DNA of 53,251 nucleotides from Flavobacteriales bacterium (GTDB lineage: Bacteria > Bacteroidota > Bacteroidia > Flavobacteriales_C > GCA-002722245): NCBI GenBank assembly GCA_947444925.1, contig CANFBW010000019.1:1-53251 (forward strand), written 5' to 3'. A program made the translations under genes and the position numbers. The first letter of the stretch is position 1. Every line of letters begins with the position of its first letter. The notes below the pieces were generated by a model that was not told the origin of the DNA, did no database searches, and was given only the letters and a program-made list of their open reading frames with translations. This document shows positions 9,474 to 29,247 of this stretch, in pieces.

Positions 9474-12400
9474 TTATTTCTTGTTTTCATAATAGTGAAT
9501 CGCATTGGCCAAAGTGATTTTCTCACCTTTGAAATGCGCTATTAAAAAAGCATCTTTCAGTCCCTTCGCTTTCAAGCTCTCTTTATACGCCACGGCTTCT
9601 CCCGGATTTTTGTAGTCTCCGCTTACATAGCGTTTCAATCCTTGTGGTGTGATTTCCATTTTAAGATCTGCAATTCCGTCGAAAATCACTTTGATGTCGG
9701 CAGGTACTTCTAATGAAAATAAGCCCACTTGTACTTGAATTTTCAAACTACTGATGTCAAATTTAGCCGTATCGCTTCCGCCTTGCACTTCGCTTGGACG
9801 AATGGTGTTTTCGTCAACTGCTGGCGCGATGGAAATTCGTTTTCCATTTTGGTACGATACCACATATGCATTCGGAAAACCTTTCTTTGCCATCTCCTCT
9901 TTGCGCTTCACCGCATCGGCAAAGTTGTCAAAACTTCCCGACAAATATCTTCTGTAATTGTTTGCCACTTCAATCTCTAATTGCGGAATTTGTTTGGTTT
10001 CCGCTGATTGTTCTGCCGTCACCGATGCAGCAGCCAATTGTACTTTGTACACCACTTTAACGGGGTCAGCTACCACTACTTTCTCTTCCACTTTTTTGGC
10101 AATGATTTCTTTTTCAATTTCTGATTTCGGCGCTACTTTTTCAGTCTTCACCTCAGCACCTGCAACATATTCATTTGCCTTAACCAGATCGGTAATCGAA
10201 ATGCGGTCACCATCTTTGTAGGCAGCAACAAAAGCATCGGCAAAACCATTTCCACGCATTTTCAGTTTGTGTTCTTGTGCTTTGGTATATGCATCGAAAG
10301 ACCCAGTGGCATAGCGCACCAGTAAATCTTTTCCTTCAAAAGAAACCACATTAACTCCTTTAAAGGCTGCCGTTGATACTTTGTTTTTAAAGGCACCCAA
10401 TTGCACACGATATACCACTGCATTGGTGCTTACTTCTGTTTGCGTTGCTTTTGCTTTGGTGTTCGGCACATCTTGAAATTTCTTGCCATCGTGTTTCACT
10501 AATTCGGTATTAAAGCCTTGTTCGTTCAACTGCGATGCTCTCTTTTTTGCATCTGCCTCATCTTTGTATTGACCGGCTGTATAAATGGTTTTACTTGGAT
10601 CAAGTGTGGTTGTGCCTTGAACGTCAGGAATACTCAACAACTTGTCGACTTCTTTACTTGTAACATCTTTTTCAAATTCCCCTACTTTCACAGCGAACTT
10701 GCCTTTCAAGTCACTTTTGTTTTCAGTTGAATCCACCAGGGTTTGTGCAACAGGCTCACTTGAGCTGCTTGCACTTTTCAGTTTTCCATTTTCAACCTTC
10801 AACAATTCAGGAGCAACATACCCTTTCTTTTTAAAGTCGGTCAACGTCTTTGATGCTGCTTCCATTTGCTTGTAAGTTCCAACAACAATGTCTTTACTGC
10901 CATCACCACGGTCTAGCTGCATAGCGTTAGGGATAGACTCTAATTTCTTTTTTTCTTCAGCACTTGTTGCCGCAGAAATATTGCCAACCTTTACAGCGTA
11001 TTCCCCCTCTTTTAATTCAGGTGCCAGTTTAGTAAGCTTGCCGTGTTCAACTTTCAGCAATTCAGCTTTCGCCAGACCTTTTGCTTTTGTGTCTATCAAT
11101 GATTTTTTTCCGGCAGCTACATCATCGCTTTGGGCAACCAAAATATCTTTTGACCCATCAGCATTGGTCACTACAATTGCATTTGGAATTTCCTCCAATT
11201 TCTTTTTCTCAGCAGTAGTTGAAGTGACATCAATTTTACCTGCCTTCACAACATACTTTCCTTCCAATGCCGCCAAAGGATCAACAGTCAAAGGTTTTGG
11301 TTTTTCAAAAAAAGCAGAATCATTTTCGTTTACAATTTTACTGTCTTTCACCTTTACTACTTTAGAGTTTGGAAAAAGTGTTTTATCCAATTCTTTCAAT
11401 TTTAAATTTGCTGCAGTGAGATCGTTGAAAGATCCGACGATGTAGTCGGTAGAGTTTTTCTCAGCCTTCAATGTTTTCACTTCCTCTTTGCCCTCGTAAA
11501 ATTTTGCTTTTTGCTCTAGGTTCGCATCGGCGGAAGTATTGCCAAGCTGAAGGGCATACTGTCCTTCCACATTTTTAAGCTTTTCCGTTTCACGCACTTT
11601 GCCTTCTTTGTCTAAAACTTTATCGAAATCTTCTAAAGCAACAAAATCAGTTCCGCGCTGGATAACAATTTTAGCGATGGGAAACATTGCGCCCAACAAT
11701 TTTTGCTGCAGTGCTTTTGCTGAATCCAAATTATTGAGTTTGCCAACGAGATACATCGTGTGGTTATCTTTAGTTAAGGCACTAATAATGTCGGGTTGCG
11801 CCAAAAAGCGCTCTACCAAAGTATCAGGGATTTTATCAAATTCCCCCACAAAAACTCTGTAAGTAGCACCCTTACCCACATTTTCAGCAGCAATTCTGCG
11901 GCGCACATCTACCGATACGTCAACAGAATCAATGAATCTACGGTACCAATTCATATAATCGGCATCGGTCATCTCTACTCCGTCGTTGTTTACCAGAGCA
12001 CTGTCCGCTGATACTTGTTTGTCTTTGTAATCGGCTACGCCATCAAGATCAGTGTCAATAGGACAGCCATTGCTGTCAACTTCGGCCCCCTTTGGCGTAT
12101 AAAGACAATGGTCGTACCAGTCGAATACCCCATCATGATCGGCATCGGTTGTATTAAGAGCGAAATAGTCGACGAATTGAAATTTCTTAATTGCTGCGGG
12201 CGTACTTCCCAACCAATCGTAATGCAAAGACACTGAATTAAAAAAATAATAATCACTGGCTGCATTTCCAGCTCGAGCGCCTGTGCCTGCAACAGAAATA
12301 TTGTCAACAAGATCTGTAAAGGTATAATGCAAAGTTGTACCCATGCGCAAATGGAAACGATCGGAAATATCAAAGAGCAAACCCATTCCAATCGGAATAG

Positions 12401-24986: not shown

Positions 24987-26339
24987 CTACTCAAAAACTA
25001 CTTTCATTGCCGTTGAATCTAAGTGTTCACCCCTCACTTTCACAATGTACATCCCCCCGCTTAATTGACTTTGGTCCCACAGCAAGGTATTCACTCCAAT
25101 ATTGTCAAAACTAATTTCGTTGTGGTACACTTCTTTTCCTGCGATAGAATACAAATATACCGCATACTTTCCGCTGTATTTCACTTGCATTTGCAGGCGA
25201 CCCGAGTTAATCGTAGTGATGCTTATTCCTGCATTCACTTGTTCCATCTCAATTGCATTGACGCTTAAGGCACAGTTGTTTATTTTAGCATACAAATTGT
25301 TGGCGAACAGATTGGCGCCATATTCACTTAAGTGCGTGGGATCACCTGAAGCCAGCATTGATGCATCAGAAATATCAGGACCATAGATCAAACATAAATT
25401 CTTGTCACTTACTTGCCTGTCGGTCACTACTTCGGTGACCATGGTTCTGAAGTCTTCCAATGCGTAAGGCGCAGCACCAGAATAGTCATTTGAAAAAATT
25501 GGCGTAATGCAATATATTTTAGCGTTGGGATGATTGGCGCGCAGCGTATCTACGAGTTTACCATACTCCGTTTTTTTGCTCGCTAAAGTGGCTGTTGAAT
25601 ATTTAAAATCGTTGAAACCTATTTTAATAGTGATGTGGTCAACATGTTTTCCTTTGATGTTTTTTGCGATAGACCAACCCAATGTAGCACCAGCCACCGC
25701 AATATTGTGCAAGTCCCAACCCATTTTATTGGCCAAAATGAAGGCATAGCCTTTTGCTGAAGAAACATACTGCCCTGTGCCATGGGTAATAGAATTTCCA
25801 ATAGCAACGTAAACAGGCTTGTTTAGTGCGCCTGGATCTTCAAGCGAATAACCATCAGCGAGGTTCATCCCAGTGAAATCTACCGACCACAGATTCGGTA
25901 ATGAAACTTCAAAAGTACTTGCTGTGCCAGGATTAGGATTACTCACCGTAAATGCCAACGAAGAATAGGTAGCTATTGAAACACCAGCTACGAAAACAGA
26001 GAATCCAGAGGTCGGTGTTCCGCCTATTGTCCCTCCAGTGGCACGTTGCGTAAAGGCGAGATCAATGGTTGGACTCGCTGTTTTAAAGCGAATGCGAACA
26101 CCTGTTTGCGTGATGACCCATTGGTTGATCCACGCTCCAGCAATACCCGACTCCCAATCGTTCAACATGGCTGGCAAATGTCGATTCAAAATAACCTTTG
26201 AAGTGGTGATTTCCGGATAATACACACCGTCGTAGGAAATATAAGGATTGTCAAGAGGCACCACCACCGTTGCAAATAAAGTTTGCATGCCAAGCAAGAA
26301 CAGAATAAAGAATCCTAATGTATTTTTCATTTTTTTCAT
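24987..26339 (-). CDS. Secreted SGNH/GDSL esterase with T9SS sorting domain
   Basis: Starting at the ATG at 26339 gives 450 residues with a clean signal peptide; ten extra upstream residues in frame seem unlikely. An N-terminal beta-sandwich (about 20-160) precedes an SGNH hydrolase domain with the nucleophile in AIGNSITHGTG, the block IKIGFNDF and the Asp/His motif GDPTHLSEYG. The C-terminus (about 365-450) is a Por sorting domain. Enzymes of this architecture deacetylate polysaccharides such as xylan. It faces the AraC-type regulator gene from downstream on the same strand, and its promoter region carries the same paired CTTTGC repeats as the other esterase. Confidence 0.82.
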   Translation of the reverse strand: MKKMKNTLGFFILFLLGMQTLFATVVVPLDNPYISYDGVYYPEITTSKVILNRHLPAMLNDWESGIAGAWINQWVITQTGVRIRFKTASPTIDLAFTQRATGGTIGGTPTSGFSVFVAGVSIATYSSLAFTVSNPNPGTASTFEVSLPNLWSVDFTGMNLADGYSLEDPGALNKPVYVAIGNSITHGTGQYVSSAKGYAFILANKMGWDLHNIAVAGATLGWSIAKNIKGKHVDHITIKIGFNDFKYSTATLASKKTEYGKLVDTLRANHPNAKIYCITPIFSNDYSGAAPYALEDFRTMVTEVVTDRQVSDKNLCLIYGPDISDASMLASGDPTHLSEYGANLFANNLYAKINNCALSVNAIEMEQVNAGISITTINSGRLQMQVKYSGKYAVYLYSIAGKEVYHNEISFDNIGVNTLLWDQSQLSGGMYIVKVRGEHLDSTAMKVVFE

Positions 26340-26449
26340 AATGCAGTTCATTTTAGTTTGAGCCAGCAAGATAAATGCTCCTCTAAAAAATTGCTTTACA
26401 TCCTACAAACAACTCTTGATCTTTTTGTAATTATCCTTTGACTACAAGC

Positions 26450-26480
26450 AATGCAAAGCAATTCAACAAAAAACGCAAAG
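26450..26480 (-). promoter_or_regulatory. Paired CTTTGC operator upstream of the SGNH esterase
   Basis: On the minus strand two CTTTGC boxes (one followed by GTTTT, one by ATTG) are spaced 22 bp apart, about 115 nt before the esterase start. The same pair, spaced 21 bp, lies about 100 nt before the second esterase gene. Two direct half-sites about two helical turns apart are the usual AraC-family binding arrangement. Function is inferred. Confidence 0.6.
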
Positions 26481-26498
26481 CAATGTTATGCTATGTAC

Positions 26499-27584
26499 TT
26501 AAGGCTGTTCTCTAAATTGCTTTGGACTCAGCCCCAGCTCTGATTTAAACACGCGGTTGAAATGCGAAATGTTATTGTACCCTGACTTATACGCAATATC
26601 GGATATTGGCAAATCACTTTCTTTCAAAAGACGTTTCACTTCGGCAAGACGAATTTGATTCAAGTAATTTTTAAATGAAGAATGATGCCCCTCTTTCAGC
26701 AGCTGCCCTATCTCGCGAGCCGAAATACCCAATTCTCTTTGCACTTCCATTTGACTCAAATCAGGATTGCTGTAGTTTTTCGATAGGAACTGAACAATCA
26801 AACCCGTTTTATCCTTGGTATCGCCTTTAATGTCATTCGCCACAAAAGGAACCAAAACTTTTTTCTTGCGCGAAAGCAAAATCATGATCCAGTAAATACT
26901 GTAGCCAAGCAATGCAGAAATAGCATAGCCAATGCATACCGAAAAATTATCGTTTACCAATTCCAACGAAGAAATCTCAATTTCATCCTCCTTTCCACCA
27001 CCAATGACCAAGCAACTTCCTACAATAAAATAGTTGACGCGTGAGAAATCAGGTTGGTTAAAATCCGCATCCGTTTTGCGGTGCGCTCTGTACCACCAAC
27101 TCGGACTAACAAAGTCTTTTACTGCTATTACATAATCCTTCTCTCCTTCGTACAGTAGCTCATAAGTGAAAGGCATGCTCGATAACTCTTTATTAGGAGA
27201 AGTAAAACCTTTGTAATCCAAGGTAAAAGTGATGGGAATGCGCTTCGCTTTTTTTGCCTTCACATGAATTTTAATGGCGTTATAATCATTTAAACTCAGC
27301 AACATCGCCAATGAGTCTTTTTTGCGAAGATAAAAACCAACAAAGGGATCGTCCTTAGTTGACGACAATTTGTATTTTAAGTGAAGCGCCCCTAAAGTAT
27401 CTTTAGTAACAGTTGCTACTGAAAAATCGACAATCTTGGGTTCGTGGTAGGTTGCAAAAAAATAAGCAGACGGCTTGTCGAAAGGTATTACTTTCTTGCT
27501 GCTAAAATCGAATACAAAAGGCATTGAAAGCAACAAAAGCGATGTGAACACCAATACATAAATATTTCTTTGTCGTTTCGTCAT
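26499..27584 (-). CDS. Membrane-spanning AraC-family regulator with extracytoplasmic sensor domain
   Basis: The 361-residue protein has a membrane helix at about residues 8-26, an extracytoplasmic domain (about 28-212), a second helix (about 215-237) and a cytoplasmic AraC-type double helix-turn-helix (about 260-360; ISDIAYKSGYNNISHFNRVF, LGLSPKQFR). The outer domain has the strand pattern of a CBM11/CIA30-like jelly roll (LNDYNAIKIHVKAKKAKRI, VKDFVSPSWW). I infer a one-component transmembrane sensor that reads a sugar outside the membrane and controls the flanking esterase genes. Gene order (esterase, regulator, divergent esterase) and shared operators support this. Confidence 0.85.
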   Translation of the reverse strand: MTKRQRNIYVLVFTSLLLLSMPFVFDFSSKKVIPFDKPSAYFFATYHEPKIVDFSVATVTKDTLGALHLKYKLSSTKDDPFVGFYLRKKDSLAMLLSLNDYNAIKIHVKAKKAKRIPITFTLDYKGFTSPNKELSSMPFTYELLYEGEKDYVIAVKDFVSPSWWYRAHRKTDADFNQPDFSRVNYFIVGSCLVIGGGKEDEIEISSLELVNDNFSVCIGYAISALLGYSIYWIMILLSRKKKVLVPFVANDIKGDTKDKTGLIVQFLSKNYSNPDLSQMEVQRELGISAREIGQLLKEGHHSSFKNYLNQIRLAEVKRLLKESDLPISDIAYKSGYNNISHFNRVFKSELGLSPKQFREQP

Positions 27585-27630
27585 CTACTTTGAAAGATAA
27601 GTAAAATCAAGTCATTTGCAAATAAGGTCA

Positions 27631-27667
27631 ACTTTGCATTTTATGTAAATGACTTTGCGTTTTGTGT
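27631..27667 (+). promoter_or_regulatory. Paired CTTTGC operator upstream of the CE2-type esterase
   Basis: ACTTTGCATTTTATGT (27631-27646) and ACTTTGCGTTTTGTGT (27652-27667) are direct repeats spaced 21 bp apart. They lie between the divergent starts of the AraC-type regulator (47 bp away) and the esterase, just upstream of a candidate -33 element. A matching pair lies before the other esterase. I infer binding of the neighbouring regulator. Confidence 0.65.
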
Positions 27668-27703: not shown

Positions 27704-27768
27704 CAGAAAAAACAAAATCGAAACACTAACTTGCCCTTACATTTGATTTGAACCAATAAACCAATTGT

Positions 27769-29247
27769 ATGACTAATAAACTACTTTCTACTCTCTTTGT
27801 CATTGTTGCAATGGCATTTACCCTACCCTCTTTTGCGCAAACACCAAGTCATTTTATTCCCGCCGATGACGCCAACATTCAATATGTGGGACGCATCGAT
27901 TTCAGCAATCCACTTGCTCCCGCTTACACTTATCCAGGGGTTAGTATTTCAGCAAAATTCAATGGCACCGCGATTACTGCCGACTTTAAAGACTATGCAT
28001 TTGGTGGCGCCACATCAACCAACTATTACAACATATACGTTGACAACGTATTTGTGAAATCACTTAAGATGTACAGCAATACGACCAATTACCCTTTGGT
28101 TTCAGGGCTGCCCGCCGGCGCACACAGCATTCGCATTACAAAAAGAACCGAATCTTCTGTTGGTAAAAGTTCATTCAAAGGCTTTTACATAGAGGAAAGC
28201 GCTCTGCTCACACCAGACGTCTTACCTACCCGAAAAATTGAATTCATTGGCGACTCTTGGACTTGTGGTTATGGCGATGAATACTCTGGTGCTGGCGCCA
28301 ATACTGGATTTACTTCTGTGAACGAAAACAATGACGCCGCTTGGGGCGCCATCACCAGTCGTCGACTCAATGCACAATACCATTGCACAGCCTATTCAGG
28401 TCGAGGATTGTACCGCAACAATGATGGCAACACTGCTTCAGTGCTTCCTAACATTTTCAACCGCATTTTTCCCGATGACGCAAATTCTACCTGGAACCAC
28501 AGTTCATACATTCCCGACGTTGTTGTTGTTCACTTAGGAACCAATGACTTTGCCAATGAACAAACATGGGCCAATAACCACAGCGTCTTGGACTCAACAG
28601 CTTACGTTCAAAAATACATAGGCTTCATCAGTGACTTAAGAAACGATTATGGCGTCAATACCAAAATTATTTGTGTCAATGGGAGTTCCATTTCAATTTG
28701 GAACGATTTCAATCAATTCAACAGATGGAACAACTACATGACTGCAATTTTTCAGCATTTTGCAAACCTCAATGACCACAATGTTTTCAAATTCAATTTG
28801 GTTACACAAGCCGCTCCATATGGTGAAGATTGGCATCCAGCAAAACACGAACACATCAAGATGGCCAATCAAATCACCCCCTACATTCAAAACATAACGG
28901 CGTGGCAAGATTGCGCAAACGTGACCTCTGGAACTGCTTATCTGGACGATTGCGCTGTGTGTGTTGCAGGCACAAGCGGCAATGTAGCTTGTGTGCCCGG
29001 TGTACTTACTTCTCAAGAAATTGTTGCCAACACAAGCACTTTAAAAATCTACCCCAATCCCGCCGCTTCGCAATTCGCTATTGAAGGCGTTAGCGAACAA
29101 ATTCAGTGGACCATCTACAATACACTAGGAGAAAGTGTTGCCATAGGACAAGGCAAAAAAGCAAACGTTGAGCTGCTTGCAAATGGACTGTACCACTTGG
29201 TGCTGTATTCAGCACAACAACAATCACTTTCCTTTTTAAAAGAATAA
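27769..29247 (+). CDS. Secreted CE2-type SGNH acetylesterase with T9SS sorting domain
   Basis: The 492-residue protein has a signal peptide (about 1-23, ending SFAQ), an N-terminal jelly-roll domain (about 28-150) and an SGNH domain with the nucleophile Ser163 in FIGDSWTCGYG, the block HLGTNDF and the catalytic Asp/His motif DWHPAKHEH. This two-domain order is that of carbohydrate esterase family 2 (acetyl xylan and related esterases). A cysteine-rich linker (about 383-415) leads to a Por sorting domain starting IYPNPAASQF. It is divergent from the AraC-type regulator and carries the paired CTTTGC repeats in front of it. Confidence 0.86.
   Translation: MTNKLLSTLFVIVAMAFTLPSFAQTPSHFIPADDANIQYVGRIDFSNPLAPAYTYPGVSISAKFNGTAITADFKDYAFGGATSTNYYNIYVDNVFVKSLKMYSNTTNYPLVSGLPAGAHSIRITKRTESSVGKSSFKGFYIEESALLTPDVLPTRKIEFIGDSWTCGYGDEYSGAGANTGFTSVNENNDAAWGAITSRRLNAQYHCTAYSGRGLYRNNDGNTASVLPNIFNRIFPDDANSTWNHSSYIPDVVVVHLGTNDFANEQTWANNHSVLDSTAYVQKYIGFISDLRNDYGVNTKIICVNGSSISIWNDFNQFNRWNNYMTAIFQHFANLNDHNVFKFNLVTQAAPYGEDWHPAKHEHIKMANQITPYIQNITAWQDCANVTSGTAYLDDCAVCVAGTSGNVACVPGVLTSQEIVANTSTLKIYPNPAASQFAIEGVSEQIQWTIYNTLGESVAIGQGKKANVELLANGLYHLVLYSAQQQSLSFLKE

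Follow-up and report, generated by a model that had tools for sequence, protein, structure and literature searches.

In the window, which here denotes the whole 53,251-nt stretch of DNA analysed, an AraC-family regulator gene (araC) lies between two genes for secreted esterases, as the initial annotation had described; est1 was found to encode a GDSL hydrolase and est2 a CE2 acetylesterase. All gene starts are predicted. The features of the locus are as follows.

24987..26339, minus strand: est1, secreted SGNH/GDSL hydrolase with a possible T9SS tail (Pfam Lipase_GDSL_2, E 1e-17); start at 26339 or 26330
26366..26373, minus strand: est1 -7 box TATCTTGC, TAnnTTG type, conserved in five species, 33-35 nt before the ATG
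26393..26405, plus strand: est1 proximal element, a weak inverted half-site 32 bp upstream of the -7 box, a lead only
26450..26458, minus strand: predicted est1 operator, promoter-proximal half-site CTTTGCATT (pattern matches, conservation, matrix tests)
26472..26480, minus strand: predicted est1 operator, distal half-site CTTTGCGTT (same evidence)
26499..27584, minus strand: araC, membrane-anchored AraC-family regulator of 361 aa (HTH_18, E 8e-22; two hydrophobic segments)
26505..26738, minus strand: AraC-type DNA-binding domain, residues 283-360 (Pfam; nearly invariant among orthologues)
26946..27503, minus strand: predicted periplasmic CBM11-like sensor domain, residues 28-213 (AlphaFold2 pLDDT 90.6; Foldseek CBM11, E 1e-7)
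27632..27640, plus strand: predicted est2 operator, distal half-site CTTTGCATT (pattern matches, conservation, matrix tests)
27653..27661, plus strand: predicted est2 operator, promoter-proximal half-site CTTTGCGTT (same evidence)
27706..27718, minus strand: est2 proximal element, a weak inverted half-site 32 bp upstream of the -7 box, a lead only
27738..27745, plus strand: est2 -7 box TACATTTG, TAnnTTTG in all five species, 31-33 nt before the ATG
27769..29247, plus strand: est2, secreted CE2 acetylesterase with a T9SS tail (CE2_N, E 5e-27; Por_Secre_tail; PDB 2wao, E 2.7e-48)

The est2 product combines a CE2_N domain (94.5 bits against a cut-off of 27.9) with a GDSL/SGNH catalytic domain, and among solved structures it is closest to the CE2 domain of C. 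thermocellum endoglucanase E and to the C. japonicus CE2. In est1, Pfam detected GDSL domains only, with no CE2 N-terminal domain; its T9SS match is weak, its motifs GNSIT, GFND and DPTH are invariant in five species, and its structure model (pLDDT 55) was too poor for a fold search. Judged from their families, the esterases would act on acetylated plant or algal polysaccharide.

The regulator carries hydrophobic segments at residues 7-25 and 218-236 and a C-terminal HTH_18 domain scoring 77.8 bits against a Pfam cut-off of 33.6. The region between the two segments matched no Pfam family, and a profile of 22 homologues found no PDB sequence match, so that a fold comparison was needed. The AlphaFold2 model of this 186-residue domain, built from the 22 homologues, had as its top Foldseek matches the CBM11 structures 6r31, 6r3m and 1v0a, which adopt a beta-sandwich fold; the complex I assembly factor NDUFAF1 was also among the best solved-structure matches, with CBM30 at a lower rank. 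Few genomes have the sensor domain, 8 in a sample of 295 from the class; its relatives occur in Cytophaga aurantiaca and Fibrobacterota, groups with cellulose degraders; the gene neighbouring the C. aurantiaca relative encodes a GH5 cellulase. The regulator is a one-component protein with the predicted topology of a transmembrane segment, a CBM11-like periplasmic domain, a second transmembrane segment and an AraC helix-turn-helix. Pfam found AraC HTH families only, and the absence of kinase and receiver domains from the 361 residues indicates that it is not an HTCS.

Rarity and conservation of the repeat pairs

The CTTTGC direct repeats lie where they had been reported. Upstream of est1 they occupy 26480-26475 and 26458-26453 on the minus strand, 22 bp apart (full sequence CTTTGCGTTTTTTGTTGAATTGCTTTGCATT, 26480 to 26450, period 22), and upstream of est2 they occupy 27632-27637 and 27653-27658 on the plus strand, 21 bp apart (full sequence CTTTGCATTTTATGTAAATGACTTTGCGTT, 27632 to 27661, period 21). 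Their near edges are located approximately 110 nt 5′ of the est1 ATG at 26339 (119 nt with the start at 26330) and 107 nt 5′ of the est2 ATG at 27769, in line with the 100-115 nt given in the initial annotation. The same annotation had stressed that one copy of each pair is followed by ATT and the other by GTT. This alternation holds in the window's genome, with GTT then ATT before est1 and the opposite order before est2, but not in the relatives, where the copies mostly read ATT; judged from these sequences, the detail is not meaningful.

Single copies of CTTTGCRTT are not rare in the window (6 against 3.1 expected, with 18 of 100 shuffles reaching 6), and a lone repeat therefore carries little weight and was not used as evidence. 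Two further copies of CTTTGCATT, at 12221-12229 and 12326-12334 on the minus strand, stand 105 bp apart and are unpaired in form, and a one-mismatch search for single CTTTGCATTTTATG was dropped as too loose. The paired pattern CTTTGCRTT-N9-16-CTTTGCRTT, in contrast to the single one, had exactly two matches in the 3,237,989-base genome, both at the est1-araC-est2 locus, and a reversed-pattern control had none in the same sequence. By this exact-pair search as well as by the profile search of the genome described below, the pairs are not equally frequent at unrelated promoters.

The window's genome (G000) was compared with four congeneric genomes, a set from one genus in which at least the four relatives are MAGs. 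All four preserve the arrangement, with est1 and est2 diverging around araC (loci L033, L034, L035 and L036), and their regulator orthologues share 65 to 51% identity with that of the window. A record titled Chryseobacterium gleum (CAMBXP010000111.1, L098) also carries the locus and corresponds to G001; its species label looks wrong. A TTTGC-type pair occurs in both intergenic regions of every congeneric genome, some copies having one changed base (e.g. CTTTAC or CTTTGT), and few blocks in the est2-region alignment are as well conserved as the pair. Both pairs are thus kept in each of the four relatives that retain the three genes. The half-site consensus is ACTTTGCATTTT(A/T)TG, and the repeats are spaced 21 bp apart before est2 in every one of the five species and 21 or 22 bp apart before est1; all ten operators of the five species accordingly display the tandem spacing of AraC/XylS-type sites, which bears out the earlier suggestion of two half-sites about two helical turns apart.

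Matrices of the shared motif were scored against a background made up of the neighbourhoods of paralogues and of unrelated loci rather than whole genomes, the genome-wide tests being the pattern and profile searches. When a matrix trained on four species was scored on the fifth, the operators of the latter were equalled or beaten by 0-7 of 586,240 background positions. A matrix trained on est1 sites only recovered every est2 site, with none of 518,612 background positions as good, and a matrix trained on est2 sites only recovered the est1 sites, with 0-5 positions equal or better among the same number. As a paralogous locus on contig C17 of G000 contains the motif too, it was excluded from the cross-promoter background. 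It was at this paralogous AraC-CE2 locus (L048) that the highest-scoring background site of the matrix tests was found, and the paralogue might therefore share or compete for the motif.

Since lone CTTTGCRTT copies are common, the pairs might be regarded as chance repeats in AT-rich intergenic DNA. We consider this extremely improbable: the pairs are better conserved than their flanks among species with 51-65% protein identity, which already contradicts it, and genome-wide rarity, cross-promoter training and the fixed phasing described below argue in the same direction. Conservation and rarity could each have overturned the interpretation of the pairs as dedicated operators, and both upheld it.

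Promoter architecture and extent of the predicted regulon

The est2 and est1 -7 boxes match, respectively, the sigma-A box mapped in Flavobacterium psychrophilum and its TAnnTTGY variant (PMC9723704), and were picked by consensus and alignment before any distance was measured. From the second repeat to the -7 box, the gaps in the five species were 79, 79, 79, 78 and 78 bp for est1 and 79, 78, 78, 68 and 68 bp for est2, and the gap was 69 bp for the second CE2 gene of one relative (G002). Operator-to-box gaps in the 11 promoters are therefore either 78-79 or 68-69 bp, two classes approximately one helical turn apart, as would be predicted for a protein that works from a single face of the helix. 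This spacing would be as expected for a helix-phased upstream activator.

These distances also bear on whether the repeats are themselves core promoter elements, that is, -33/-7 boxes of the Bacteroidota housekeeping sigma factor. CTTTGC does resemble the right half of TAnnTTTG, and its TTTG core is invariant or nearly so; nevertheless, no conserved -7 TA precedes the repeats, the two copies are too close to form -33 and -7 boxes, and each ATG has, 31-35 nt ahead of it, a conserved -7 box that is distinct from the repeats and 68-79 bp downstream of the pair. A core promoter function is thus very unlikely. We likewise think it unlikely that the role of the regulator at these sites is repression, or control of its own gene, instead of activation of the esterases. 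The est2 operator is about 47 bp upstream of the araC start, and could for this reason also act on araC, but the sites lie approximately 80 bp upstream of the esterase -7 boxes in a helix-phased, activator-like position, and the est1 pair lies 3′ of the araC stop codon.

Beyond the tandem pair, all 11 promoters have their best reverse-strand half-site at one and the same position, 32 bp upstream of the box. These sites are individually weak (p 0.01 to 0.36) and may represent a third half-site or a promoter element; a third half-site sought on the forward strand of the promoters was inconsistent.

A profile of the ten operators was then run over the five genomes, and its top ten matches were the training sites. 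The best new match (G000:C80:3144-3178, E 1.1e-4) belongs to the window's own genome and lies about 130 nt upstream of est3, which encodes a secreted CE2 esterase of 756 aa. The C80 gene has a box-like TAGCTTTA at a similar distance from the operator, which is weak evidence, as it was picked afterwards. In G002, a 21-bp-spaced pair precedes another CE2 esterase gene, which itself follows a GH9 endoglucanase gene next to est2. Two sites are weaker candidates: one adjoins a GH9 gene in G001, in the wrong orientation for that gene, and the other lies 112 bp before a gene for a 1030-aa secreted protein in G002. Weak profile matches at G002:C6, G000:C60, G001:C11 and G004:C82 (L137-L140) fall on open reading frames and were taken to be chance.

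A correctly oriented pair is present at seven of the ten CE2 genes of the five genomes; the gene at G000:C17 has three opposite-strand copies, and the remaining two, on contigs C83 and C55 of G004, lack the operator pair. The regulon of one sensor and two enzymes proposed in the initial annotation thus stands as regards the operators shared by est1 and est2, but was drawn too narrowly: as predicted from these sites, the regulon is at least three enzymes in this genome, with further candidates in the relatives.

The G002 locus is also extended in gene content. A TPR gene adjoins est2 in the window, and in G002:C14 (L033:9832-16001, L136:1-7354) extra secreted-protein genes lie between the two; they include the GH9 endoglucanase gene and the second CE2 esterase gene, and two further operator-like sites occur among them.

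Paralogous membrane AraC loci

In these genomes, paralogous membrane AraC genes adjoin GH18-CBM6, GH9, apiosidase-like, L-type lectin or other secreted-protein genes, and several have repeats of their own. One repeat, TTGTCCGGT, is present in five species as two copies 22 bp apart, of which the second carries one change in L043. Another, ACAATAATGTGAGT/ACAAAAATGTTAGC at 21 bp, was found in two species (L049:7784-7960 and L050:4099-4270) between the paralogous AraC gene and a secreted apiosidase-like gene. Upstream of yet another paralogous AraC gene, at L046:7560-7600 (G000:C67), lies a CGATCG-centred 21-bp repeat, which was not found in the orthologous locus L044. These repeats would generalise the earlier idea into one sensor, one repeat and one small gene set.

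At the C17 paralogue (L048:6977-7030), GCAAAGT, the same core as in the est1 and est2 repeats in the opposite orientation, occurs upstream of the adjoining CE2 esterase gene in three copies spaced exactly 21 bp apart. The pairs at our locus might accordingly be true operators bound by another regulator, e.g. this paralogous AraC protein or an HTCS, with araC a mere neighbour. Against such a binder, the two operators flank the regulator gene in each of the five species, and no C17-like AraC gene adjoining CE2 was found in the four relatives searched, yet the operators are kept; we therefore regard it as improbable.

Beside one group of paralogous membrane AraC genes, downstream of the TTGTCCGGT 22-bp direct repeat, lies a probable small RNA gene of approximately 68 nt (L041:8932-8999, minus strand, about G000:C58:16931-16998), also present in L039, L040, L042 and L043, with further copies at G002:C23:268 and G004:C143:9940. 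It has a near-invariant 5′ part, AAGAAAAGTAGATTGAATCCC, followed by a terminator-like hairpin in which three of seven pairs show changes on both sides, a covariation that is modest owing to the few sequences. No Rfam family came near threshold at this locus.

SusD_RagB (PF07980) had one match in the control genome, Bacteroides ihuae, and none in the whole G000 genome; having none is unusual for a polysaccharide degrader of this phylum. A broader scheme, in which a scarcely described family of CBM11-like/transmembrane/AraC single-protein glycan sensors replaces HTCS/SusR in the absence of SusD, each paralogue reading its own 21-22 bp repeat beside its own secreted-enzyme genes and one group also lying beside a small RNA gene, is offered tentatively, as a possibility that falls somewhat short of probable.

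Proposed mechanism and comparison with known systems

The pairs are very probably docking sites of the intervening AraC-family regulator. In the mechanism that we propose, the regulator would reside in the inner membrane, exposing the CBM11-like domain to the periplasm and the AraC domain to the cytoplasm, and the former would bind a glycan fragment, probably released from acetylated hemicellulose or beta-glucan. Upon glycan binding, the DNA-binding domains would dock in tandem on the two half-sites, 21-22 bp apart on one helix face, and from approximately 80 bp upstream the helix-phased regulator would activate est1, est2 and the third CE2 esterase gene elsewhere in the genome, with autoregulation of araC through the est2 operator possible. 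The conservation and rarity of the pairs, their common motif and phasing, the new target, the identities of the genes and the predicted fold were obtained by computation. We infer that the pairs are bound by this AraC protein, that its effect is activation and not repression, possibly also on its own gene, and that a glycan is the signal. Taken as a whole, this explanation, from operators of the intervening regulator to glycan-triggered activation of the three esterase genes, appears likely to us, and we hold it with good confidence.

If so, membrane-bound AraC sensors gain from this locus a concrete predicted operator sequence and regulon; the class was reported from a polysaccharide degrader in 2008, and the literature searched describes no binding sites for it. 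The locus also suggests a way in which, in a Bacteroidota lineage without SusD, a single protein may link the sensing of polysaccharides directly to the expression of deacetylases, and such a link could serve as a simple glycan biosensor.

The AraC I1-I2 and XylS sites consist of tandem half-sites about two helical turns apart. The present regulator, with its presumed DNA binding, resembles the AraC/XylS activators in its AraC-type HTH and tandem half-sites, whereas their ligand domain is soluble and cytoplasmic and that of the present protein is membrane-anchored and periplasmic. Its predicted sensor fold is like CBM11 of C. thermocellum Lic26A-Cel5E (TM 0.62-0.68, E 1e-7), although the sequence identity is approximately 10%, that CBM11 is part of an enzyme, and glucan binding is putative here. 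No protein combining CBM11, AraC and transmembrane parts was described in the open-access full-text literature searched. In Saccharophagus degradans, many membrane-bound AraC regulators have been reported, several beside cellulose-degradation genes, and polysaccharide sensing was proposed for them (PMC2386152). By that description they are likewise two-TM AraC proteins encoded beside polysaccharide-degradation genes; unlike the present case, the passages that describe them give no operators, sensor fold or regulon.

The predicted operator architecture follows the known AraC/HTCS form. Predicted operators of Bacteroides HTCS are direct repeats averaging 21 bp (PMC3878776). The setting differs from that of HTCS in that the regulator is a one-component protein of 361 aa with a CBM11-like rather than a COG3292 sensor, in a genome with no SusD gene (PF07980). 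It is like the Bacteroides HTCS (PMC3878776) in the putative membrane-anchored glycan sensing, the AraC output domain, the direct-repeat operators of approximately 21 bp, and targets that are polysaccharide enzymes, esterases included.
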